From Acidobacteriota bacterium (lineage in GTDB: Bacteria > Acidobacteriota > Vicinamibacteria > Vicinamibacterales > UBA2999), in NCBI GenBank assembly GCA_016871195.1, contig VFZN01000006.1, positions 1 through 64,000 of the forward strand: a stretch of DNA of 64,000 bases. Direction: 5' to 3'. Of the stretch, positions 2,528 to 54,720 are shown piece after piece. Both the position numbers and the translations under genes were made by a program. The notes under the pieces were generated by a model. That model ran no database searches. It had not been told where the DNA came from and was given only the letters and a program-made list of their open reading frames with translations. Within the stretch, counting starts at the first letter, position 1; the number at the start of each line of letters is the position of its first letter.

Positions 2528-3175
2528 ATGACGGCCCTGCCCCAGTTCACGGTTGACGCGGCACTGACGGCGATTGTGCGTCCCGCGGTGCTCTGGTGGG
2601 ACGGCGCACGCGTGACAGATCAGTCCGAGGTGCTCGACCGGGAATTGCCGGAGGCCGAGGTGCGCGTCCGCACGATGCCTCCCGAAGAAACCGCAGCCGT
2701 GCGCACGATGTACAAGCGCATCGGGATCGATCCGACCCGCACCCGCCCCTCGAACGAGGCACTGCTGCGTCGCCTGCGGAAGGGTGATCGCCTGCCGCGC
2801 ATCAACACCATGGTCGATGTCATCAACTGGTGCTCGGTCGAAATGCAGTTGCCCTATGGGCTCTACGATCGGGTCCTGATGCATCCGCCCGTGACGCTGC
2901 GCCTCGGGGCGCCGGAAGAAGAGTACGCGGGCATCCGGAAGGACACGGTGCACGTGGGGGGACGACTGGTCGTGGCCGACGCCGAGGGAGCCTTCGGCAA
3001 TCCCACCTCCGATTCGGCCCGGACGATGGTGACGGCGGCGACGGTTGATGCGCTGGTGGTGGTGTATGCACCAGCTGATGTGAGCGAGCGTCGACTGGCG
3101 CAGGTGCTTGATCTCACCGCCGGGCGCTTGCTGCGGGTGTGCGGAGGGCATGAGGCCGGACGGTGGATGGCGTGA
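2528..3175 (+). CDS. B3/B4 tRNA-binding/editing-like domain protein (PheRS beta-like)
   Basis: 'YKRIGIDPTRTRPSNEALLRRL', 'INWCSVEMQLPYGLYD' typical of free-standing B3/4 proteins; start ATG at 2528. Confidence 0.7.
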   Translation: MTALPQFTVDAALTAIVRPAVLWWDGARVTDQSEVLDRELPEAEVRVRTMPPEETAAVRTMYKRIGIDPTRTRPSNEALLRRLRKGDRLPRINTMVDVINWCSVEMQLPYGLYDRVLMHPPVTLRLGAPEEEYAGIRKDTVHVGGRLVVADAEGAFGNPTSDSARTMVTAATVDALVVVYAPADVSERRLAQVLDLTAGRLLRVCGGHEAGRWMA

Positions 3176-51165: not shown

Positions 51166-51372
51166 ATGGGGGCAGAGACTGTGGCGGTCGTGACGGCCCT
51201 GCTGCCAAACGAGCTGGTGCAGGTGGCGGTGGAAGGTGAGACGCATCGGGTGGTGGCACATCATGCCGACCCGGTGCGACGAAATTATGTGCGGCTGGTC
51301 GTCGGCGACCGTGTGCGCGTGGCACTGATGCCCCGCGACCAGGGGCGCGGGCGGATCCTGGAGAGGCTGTAG
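51166..51372 (+). CDS. infA: Divergent translation initiation factor IF-1-like protein
   Basis: 68 aa; '[59 protein letters not shown]' aligns with the IF-1 OB-fold; map-infA-rpmJ position. Confidence 0.8.
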
Positions 51373-51384
51373 AGGAACCAAGCG

Positions 51385-51498
51385 ATGAAGGTACGAGCAT
51401 CAGTCAGGAAGATCTGCGACAAGTGCAAGGTCGTCCGCCGCCGCGGGGTGGTGCGGGTGGTTTGCACGAACCAGAAGCACAAGCAGCGGCAAGGATAA
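51385..51498 (+). CDS. rpmJ: 50S ribosomal protein L36
   Basis: Translation [37 protein letters not shown]; too short for the ORF track. Confidence 0.97.
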
Positions 51499-51509
51499 GG
51501 CGAGGACCT

Positions 51510-51884
51510 ATGGCACGTATTTCAGGTGTCGATCTTCCGCGGACCAAGCGGGTGGAGATCGGGCTCACGTATATCTTCGGGATTGGGCGTCATCGCTCGA
51601 ACCTGATTCTTGAGGCAGCGGGCGTCAGCGGTGACGTGCGCGTCAAGGACCTCACCGACGACGACGTCCGGAAGATTACCCGGGTGATTGAAGAGCAGGG
51701 TGGGGTGGAAGGCGATCTCCGGAAGGAGATTTCGATGAACATCAAGCGGCTCATCGAAATCGGCAGTTTCCGCGGCAGCCGACATCGCCGCAGCCTGCCG
51801 GCCCGGGGGCAGCGCACGCGCACCAATGCGCGCACACGCAAGGGGCCGCGCAAGGGTGCAGTGGCCAAGAAGAAGACGGTGTAA
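51510..51884 (+). CDS. rpsM: 30S ribosomal protein S13
   Basis: '[34 protein letters not shown]', '[32 protein letters not shown]'. Confidence 0.98.
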
Positions 51885-51887
51885 GCC

Positions 51888-52310
51888 ATGGCAAAGACCG
51901 AATCAGCGGCAGGCAAGGAATCGCGCAAGAAGAAGACGTTCAAGAAGCGCGGCGAAAAGCGCGTCGTGCATCACGGCTTCGTGCATGTGCAGGCGTCGTT
52001 CAACAACACGCTCATCACGATCACCGACGCCGACGGGGCGGTGGTGTCGTGGTCAAGCGCGGGGGCCATTGGCTTCAAGGGATCGCGCAAGGGCACGCCG
52101 TTCGCGGCCACCCAGGCGGCCCTGACGGCCACAAACACGGCCAAGACGTTCGGCATGCGCTCGTGCGATGTGCTGGTGAAAGGGCCGGGCTCAGGACGCG
52201 AATCGGCCATCCGGGCGCTGTCGACGGCGGGCCTCGACGTCAAGTCGATTCGCGACGTCACCCCGATTCCCCATAACGGATGCCGGCCGCCGAAGCGGCG
52301 GCGCGTGTAA
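51888..52310 (+). CDS. rpsK: 30S ribosomal protein S11
   Basis: '[50 protein letters not shown]', '[18 protein letters not shown]'. Confidence 0.98.
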
Positions 52311-52341
52311 CTTCTAGAACAGACGACAAGGATCGATATTC

Positions 52342-52965
52342 ATGGCTCGTTACAACGGACCTGCCTGCCGACTCTGCCGCCGCGAAGGCATGAAGCTCTA
52401 TCTCAAGGGCGAGCGGTGCTACACCGAGAAGTGCGCGATCGAAAAGCGCAACACGCCTCCGGGCCAGCACGGCCGGGCGCGCAAGGCCAAGATGGTGGGC
52501 TACGGCGTCCAGCTGCGCGAGAAGCAGAAGGTCAAGCGCATTTACGGCGTGCTGGAAGACCAGTTCCGCCGCTATTTCGAGCAGGCCGACCGCACGCGCG
52601 GTATTACGGGCGAGACTCTGCTCCAGTTGCTGGAGCGCCGCCTCGACAACGCCGTCTACCGTTTGGGCTTCGCCACGTCGCGTGCGCAGGGGCGCCAGCT
52701 CGTGCTGCACGGTCACTTCCTCGTGAACGGCAAGAAGGTCGACGTGCCGTCGTATTCGCTCAAGTCGGGCGATGTGGTGTCGGTGCGTGAATCGAGCCGC
52801 GAAAACACCTCGATCGTGCATGCGATGGACGAGGTCAAGGGTCGCGGGATTCCCGAGTGGCTCACCCTCGACGGCAGCGCCGGCAAGGTCATGGGCCTGC
52901 CGACGCGCGAGCAGATCAACCTGCCCGTGCAGGAACAGCTCATCGTCGAGTTGTACAGCAAGTAA
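52342..52965 (+). CDS. rpsD: 30S ribosomal protein S4 (Cys-rich zinc-binding N-terminus)
   Basis: '[44 protein letters not shown]', S4 domain '[43 protein letters not shown]'. Confidence 0.98.
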
Positions 52966-53014
52966 TGGGACAGGGCGGGGGCGGGGCTGGTGCTCCGGAC
53001 CTCCGCCGCCACGC

Positions 53015-53075
53015 CATCGGCCCGCAGCTTGGCAGACCTGCAGCGGGAGGCCGGTGGCCGATGACTGCAGGTCTG
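53015..53075 (+). promoter_or_regulatory. Interlocking alternative stems (switch or pseudoknot) between rpsD and rpoA
   Basis: CATCGGCC (53015-53022)/GGCCGATG (53056-53063) interleaved with CAGACCTGCAG (53033-53043)/CTGCAGGTCTG (53065-53075). Confidence 0.5.
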
Positions 53076-53115
53076 GAGGCCGGGCTGCCGGCCCGCATGG
53101 CGAAAGGACACGACA

Positions 53116-54087
<972 letters not shown>

Positions 54088-54105
54088 CCGGGTAGGGGAA
54101 CTGTC

Positions 54106-54720
54106 ATGCGTCACGGTAATGCACACCGGAAGCTCGGCCGGGTCTCCGAGCACCGCATCGCGCTGCTGCGCAATCAGGCCACGGCCCTGCTGCAGCACGA
54201 GCGGATTGAAACCACACTGCCGAAGGCCAAGGAACTGCGGCCCTTCGTCGAGCGCCTCATCACCATCGCCAAGCGCGGCGTCAAGGCGGCCGATCCCAAG
54301 GGCACGACCCTGTCGGCCCGTCGACTGGTCATGCGCGACGTCCACAACGAGGACGTGGTCGTGAAGCTGTTCGACGACCTGGCGCCCCGCTTCGCGGAGC
54401 GTCCCGGCGGCTACACACGCATCCTGAAGCTGGGGCATCGTCGCGGCGACGCTGCGGACATGGCCCAGATGGAACTCGTGGGCAGCGAGTTCGATCCGAA
54501 GAAGGCCGAAGCCGAACGCAAGGCGGCCGAGGACGCCGCCCAGGGTGGCGAGACGTCGGCACCCAAGAAGAGCGTTGGCGAACGCCTGCGTTCAGCAGCG
54601 GCGGCCCTCGGCGGTGGCAAGAAAGCCAAGGGCGATGCCGGGGCCAAGAGCAAGGCCTCGCGCCCGGCACGTGCGGCGGCCAAGAAGGCAACCACCCCGC
54701 GTAAGGCTGGCGGATCGTAA
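54106..54720 (+). CDS. rplQ: 50S ribosomal protein L17 with long Ala/Lys-rich C-terminal extension
   Basis: '[58 protein letters not shown]'. Confidence 0.96.

Follow-up and report, generated by a model that had tools for sequence, protein, structure and literature searches.

A covarying H-type mRNA pseudoknot directly upstream of rpoA in the alpha operon of an order of Acidobacteriota

Described operators of ribosomal protein operons and the rpsD-rpoA gap

The matching of an RNA polymerase subunit to the supply of ribosomal proteins on one shared message is best studied in Escherichia coli, whose S4 operator (Rfam Alpha_RBS) is a pseudoknot of the alpha-operon mRNA situated at a ribosome-binding site; the alpha subunit itself escapes S4 control there and is regulated independently (PMC10931766). 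Three further groups of described elements are comparable: (i) the S4 leaders of Bacteroidia, Clostridia, Flavobacteria and Fusobacteriales (PMC7247131), which are structured RNAs of the same operon with a restricted lineage, preceding rpsD or rpsM, (ii) the L17 leader of Actino- and Proteobacteria (PMC7247131) and the L17 downstream element (PMC2864571), candidate feedback elements lying directly before or after rplQ, and (iii) the rpsO/S15 operators, H-type pseudoknots beside the Shine-Dalgarno (SD) sequence, of which the mycobacterial one precedes the initiation site (PMC10931766). No motif among the 20 of PMC7247131 is given for Acidobacteria, and none has rpoA as its first gene.

The element reported here was found in a 64,000-nt stretch of an Acidobacteriota genome (the window; contig VFZN01000006.1) and differs from each of these systems. 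Unlike Alpha_RBS, it is located before rpoA and not before rpsM, and leaves the SD sequence and the start codon outside the knot. It follows rpsD, whereas the S4 leaders precede rpsD or rpsM; the L17 elements adjoin rplQ and occur in other phyla, and the rpsO/S15 operators differ in gene and sequence, the ligand in the present case being putative. The first-pass annotation, made from the letters of the window, had likened the locus to the E. coli alpha-operon element, a comparison which found no basis in homology, either by sequence (no match to the Alpha_RBS covariance model) or by placement (not at the first gene, rpsM, around its ribosome-binding site). The Rfam search gave no match for the window element at the gathering score, nor any up to E = 10 in the region 51200-54300, and ten diverse members of the element likewise matched no family. 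In the open-licence PMC literature we found no description of a structured RNA before rpoA in Acidobacteria, and an earlier account may exist elsewhere.

Within the window, the stop codon of rpsD and the ATG of rpoA are separated by 150 nt (52966-53115), which is the sole long intergenic gap of the alpha operon; the remaining gaps are 11 nt (rpmJ-rpsM), 3 nt (rpsM-rpsK), 31 nt (rpsK-rpsD) and 18 nt (rpoA-rplQ). Neither a sigma-70-like promoter nor an intrinsic terminator was found in the rpsD-rpoA gap, and its folding z-score is -4.0. The first-pass annotation had noticed two interleaved perfect stems, and their arms, CATCGGCC (53015), CAGACCTGCAG (53033), GGCCGATG (53056) and CTGCAGGTCTG (53065), are indeed present, the number 33043 that it also gave for the second being a misprint; no other perfect stem in the gap reaches 8 bp. 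Of 2000 shuffled versions of the gap with the dinucleotide content preserved, 1.25% contained interleaved stems of 8 bp or more, and none (0/2000) contained interleaved stems one of which reached 11 bp. The features of the locus are collected in Table 1.

Table 1. Features of the rpsD-rpoA region (positions in the window)
Feature	Position	Strand	Evidence or remark
rpmJ	51385-51498		
rpsD, ribosomal protein S4, zinc CxxC type	52342-52965	+	ORF of 207 aa; full-length relatives 73-90% identical
Variable hairpin between rpsD stop and pseudoknot	52974-53007	+	fold; same place in relatives, with differing sequence
Tentative outer helix D, 5' arm CGCCA	53007-53011	+	pairs with 53098-53102
Stem A, 5' arm CCAUCGGCC	53014-53022	+	99.1% paired with 53049-53057 over 73 sequences, 111 double changes
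Stem A, inner extension CGC	53023-53025	+	pairs with GCG 53043-53045; GGA 53046-53048 bulged
Loop 1, opening with invariant AGC of GCAGC	53026-53032	+	invariant columns of alignment A1
Stem B, 5' arm CAGACCUGC	53033-53041	+	99.8% paired with 53067-53075 over 73 sequences
Stem A, 3' arm GGCCGGUGG	53049-53057	+	covariation; replaces 53056-53063 of the first-pass annotation
Loop 3	53058-53066	+	6-10 nt in relatives, rarely with inserted hairpin
Stem B, 3' arm GCAGGUCUG	53067-53075	+	covariation; conserved core of 9 bp
Hairpin C, GGCCGG/CCGGCC	53078-53093 (53078-53083 with 53088-53093)	+	98.5% paired, double changes in 4/6 pairs
Tentative outer helix D, 3' arm UGGCG	53098-53102	+	abuts the SD sequence
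rpoA Shine-Dalgarno sequence, GAAAGGA	53102-53108	+	sequence; kept in the alignment of relatives
rpoA, RNA polymerase alpha subunit	53116-54087	+	ORF of 323 aa; relatives 74-85% identical
rplQ, ribosomal protein L17	54106-54720	+	ORF; 3' of rpoA in 67/67 testable element-bearing loci

Anatomy and covariation of the pseudoknot

The rpsD-rpoA gap holds an H-type pseudoknot, usually succeeded by a hairpin (hairpin C), which ends beside the rpoA SD sequence. Its two helices interleave in the order 5'A-5'B-3'A-3'B, and both are kept by compensatory change. In most of the relatives the conserved stretch opens with the 5' arm of stem A and (C/A)GCAGC; a short linker leads to the 5' arm of stem B, RGCGGGA and the 3' arm of stem A, and 6-10 nt further on come the 3' arm of stem B, as a rule hairpin C, and the SD sequence, the last of which does not fall within any conserved stem.

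For the comparative analysis, gaps between rpsD and rpoA were collected from about 48 relatives, and 33 sequences were aligned (alignment A1). The pseudoknot together with hairpin C is 96.6% paired in this alignment, with 14 of the 26 pairs changed on both sides and 44 doubly changed cells, compared to 7.1 in shuffles. When the partners were displaced by 1-3 columns, pairing fell to at most 47%, a control which is biased towards the structure, as this was proposed from the same sequences; the shuffles are free of that bias. In a larger set each gap was parsed by its own anchors and members of the CAGCAGC type were brought into register, which yielded 73 distinct elements. The parser takes the best-pairing arms, which somewhat favours pairing, and places them at the same positions as alignment A1 with tight spacings; on this basis stem A (9 bp) is 99.1% paired, with double changes in 8/9 pairs, and stem B (9 bp) is 99.8% paired, with double changes in 6/9 pairs. 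The doubly changed cells number 111 in stem A (1000 shuffles: mean 20.0, maximum 33) and 18 in stem B (shuffles: mean 1.9, maximum 9). The sharpest cases in stem A are CCACGUUC/GAACGUGG (L005 and L011), CCGUCCUC/GAGGAUGG (L012) and CCUCUUAUC/GGUAAGAGG (L183, entered by hand), and those in stem B are CAGGCUUGC/GCAAGCCUG (L175) and UUGACCCGC/GCGGGUCGA (L183). Mapped on the rpoA tree, stem A changed its pair states at least 102 times with the arms still 99.1% paired. Over the 73 elements, 60 G.U pairs stand against 2 A.C mismatches, and the functional molecule is therefore the rpoA-sense RNA. A covariation check of rpsD-rpoA gaps had been proposed in the first-pass annotation, and the pseudoknot ahead of rpoA passed it strongly.

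The two stems proposed there fared differently. Stem B was placed correctly, with a conserved core of 9 bp (53033-53041 with 53067-53075). The partner assigned to stem A (53056-53063) had to be given up, since in the relatives it pairs in 47.1% of cells, compared to 45.5% in shuffled sequences, and shows no covariation. The segment GGCCGGTGGCCGATG contains two near-copies of the stem A 3' arm, and it is the copy at 53049-53057 that the relatives conserve; in the window, GGCCGGTGG pairs with CCATCGGCC (53014-53022) to form 9 bp, including one G.U pair. In the relatives stem A is extended inward, beyond the bulge, by GC/GC pairs, which correspond to CGC/GCG in the window. Two of these extension pairs (53024-53044 and 53025-53043) are kept in 33/33 sequences of alignment A1, and the window sequence suggests a third, C53023-G53045.

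Interleaved stems may represent either mutually exclusive states or a pseudoknot, and the first-pass annotation had left the choice between the two. The pseudoknot is favoured, because stems A and B are kept together in 73/73 sequences. The nested minimum-energy fold of the window, including its long outer helix, shows no excess pairing (74.6% compared to 74.1% in shuffled sequences), and a mutually exclusive switch is therefore not indicated.

Hairpin C is absent from L175 (G469), L183 (G470) and L166, in which the SD sequence follows only a few nucleotides after stem B; the A/B knot at the SD sequence is thus the core of the element. Loop 1 and the loop of hairpin C can be joined by a CAG/CUG contact, which is common in most families and lost in several members of family f10. 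A further outer helix (helix D) is tentatively assigned to the element: in most of 64 relatives the segment preceding stem A (UCGC or CGCC(A)) is complementary to one bordering the SD sequence (GCGA or (U)GGCG), with weak covariation (permutation p of 0.03 for helix length and 0.13 for energy).

In several loci hairpin-forming inserts of tens of nucleotides were observed in loop 3 (L136 and L027) or in hairpin C (L008, L078 and L143), stems A and B being intact, and insertions into the element seem to land in loops. The segment between the rpsD stop codon and the pseudoknot forms a further hairpin, with z-scores below -2 in 44 of 52 relatives, reaching -13, and of -1.8 in the window itself. 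In most relatives (e.g., L011, L024 and L030) this upstream hairpin is long, often near-perfect and unrelated in sequence, and sometimes it is made of short repeats such as GCAGTAGGCAGT.

Distribution and linkage to rpoA-rplQ

A covariance model of the element was searched against a phylum-wide sample of 396 genomes and 162 genomes of the order to which the window belongs. Strong matches were confined to this order, where 87 of the 162 genomes carry the element; outside it, the sample of 396 genomes gave nothing better than an E-value of about 1e-3. Four of the weak matches (E of about 3e-4 to 0.002), three outside the order (G207, G200 and G087) and one in family f8 (G053), were checked, had no rpsD or rpoA nearby and were taken as chance. 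The genome of the window contains one strong copy, the next match having E = 0.27, which rules out a dispersed DNA repeat. The element is missing from eight of the sampled families of the order, so that regulation by it is dispensable. Presence and absence require 6 changes on the rpoA tree, whose root and direction are not fixed, and this pattern would fit an ancestral presence with several later losses.

Two side observations were made. In L090 (G198:C11:54000-60000, about 2763-2960, minus strand) there is a second, degenerate copy of the 3' end of rpsD with part of the pseudoknot, adjoining an apparent IS3-type transposase fragment; this second copy is probably a stray duplication. In three loci of families f12 and f13 (L034, L042 and L048) a different short motif, GGCCTGACGCCGAGGCCTGAGAGCGGCG, precedes the SD sequence directly ahead of rpoA. 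A mini H-type pseudoknot, in which GGCC/GGCC interleaves with CGCCG/CGGCG, is a possible fold of this motif, the three sequences showing little variation.

All parsed elements lie directly before rpoA, and rplQ is the next gene in 67/67 loci long enough to tell. In two species of one genus (loci L093/L176 of G044 and L177 of G422; genus g33) the operon reads rpsM-rpsK-element-rpoA-rplQ and has no rpsD, and rpsK and rpoA are separated by a complete pseudoknot. The sole S4 found in these genomes is 43-46% identical and encoded elsewhere; the G422 protein, which was read, does not have the CxxC zinc motif present in the S4 of the window. Since the S4 of Acidobacteria belongs to the zinc-binding C+ group (PMC3087516), it looks, from the sequences, as if the zinc-type S4 of this genus was replaced by a divergent one, presumably by transfer, and rpsD deleted from the alpha operon. 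The element therefore tracks rpoA-rplQ, and the native S4 is not needed to keep it.

Putative function and ligand

A covarying and conserved structured RNA, lying upstream of an operon segment with a ribosomal protein gene (rpoA-rplQ, in all testable loci), fits a candidate ribosomal leader. Judged by sequence comparison, the element is probably a cis-acting translational control element for rpoA-rplQ in the alpha-operon mRNA, with a putative protein ligand. A compact knot ending at the SD sequence, or a hairpin's length before it, can hinder loading of the 30S subunit, and we infer that such a stable fold docked at the edge of the ribosome-binding site would set the translation of rpoA and also that of rplQ, located 18 nt behind it in the window. 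Excess operon protein would bind the pseudoknot and block 30S loading or the start at the rpoA AUG, the bound protein strengthening the hindrance. Control exerted here would separate the regulation of alpha and L17 from that of S13-S11-S4.

The single most likely ligand, ahead of S4, is L17, although we put it forward tentatively, from the gene neighbourhood: it is the only ribosomal protein encoded downstream, and thus the first candidate under the rule of the only regulated ribosomal protein gene (PMC7247131). The probability left by L17 and S4 falls to another protein, alpha itself included, or to no ligand at all.

The first-pass annotation had proposed an S4-responsive element before rpoA, and of this the regulatory RNA stands, by covariation, while S4 as the ligand is weakened. 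Free S4 binding the pseudoknot would tune alpha (and L17) and possibly feed back on the upstream rpsM-rpsK-rpsD message. S4 is the known regulator of the E. coli alpha operon, where its target is also a pseudoknot, it is the predicted ligand in Bacteroidia, Clostridia, Flavobacteria and Fusobacteriales (PMC7247131, PMC10931766), and the 11-nt gap before rpsM in the window leaves no room for an operator there. However, the E. coli protein represses S13, S11, S4 and L17 but not alpha (PMC10931766), and the element is intact in G044 and G422, which have no rpsD in the operon and only the divergent S4. That the element tracks rpoA-rplQ and not rpsD makes an S4 operator less likely, though it ranks only a little behind L17. 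Zinc and zinc-less S4 share the same place in the ribosome, and S4 is for this reason still a candidate ligand. A search for the rRNA, as the possible model of a mimicked site, gave no SSU match and LSU only in part, 5000 of the 7101 fetched bases of the rRNA region being N.

Somewhat less likely still is a segmentation of the message, in which the upstream hairpin and the pseudoknot would form a boundary of mRNA cutting or protection that gives rpsM-rpsK-rpsD and rpoA-rplQ separate stabilities with no protein ligand. The strong hairpin, unconserved in sequence, between the rpsD stop codon and the pseudoknot in 44/52 relatives would suit such a role, but a simple barrier could do without invariant loop letters (GCAGC and GGGA) and a conserved geometry, and some members (e.g., L039 and L175) have little or no upstream hairpin. 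A small-molecule riboswitch or a self-cleaving ribozyme is very improbable: H-type pseudoknots are common in both and unpaired invariant nucleotides are present, yet the element was found only before rpoA, never ahead of metabolic genes, and matches no riboswitch or ribozyme of Rfam. The region has a very high GC content and can adopt many strong folds, but a chance or compositional artefact, or a dispersed DNA repeat, is refuted by covariation far above shuffles, the one strong genomic copy and the strand asymmetry of the G.U pairs.

Translational control of rpoA-rplQ being the preferred reading, the element may represent a new class of mRNA pseudoknot by which RNA polymerase alpha (with L17) is autoregulated, alpha or L17 serving as the ligand, a proposal to which we give somewhat less than an even chance. 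If true, the supply of RNA polymerase would be tied directly to ribosome assembly, by control aimed at rpoA and not at the ribosomal protein genes. The host group is an order of soil and water Acidobacteria, a widespread environmental phylum, for whose annotation the element provides a new RNA family, and a covarying RNA placed exactly at rpoA, and kept after the S4 gene had left the operon, offers a concrete and testable control point for alpha.
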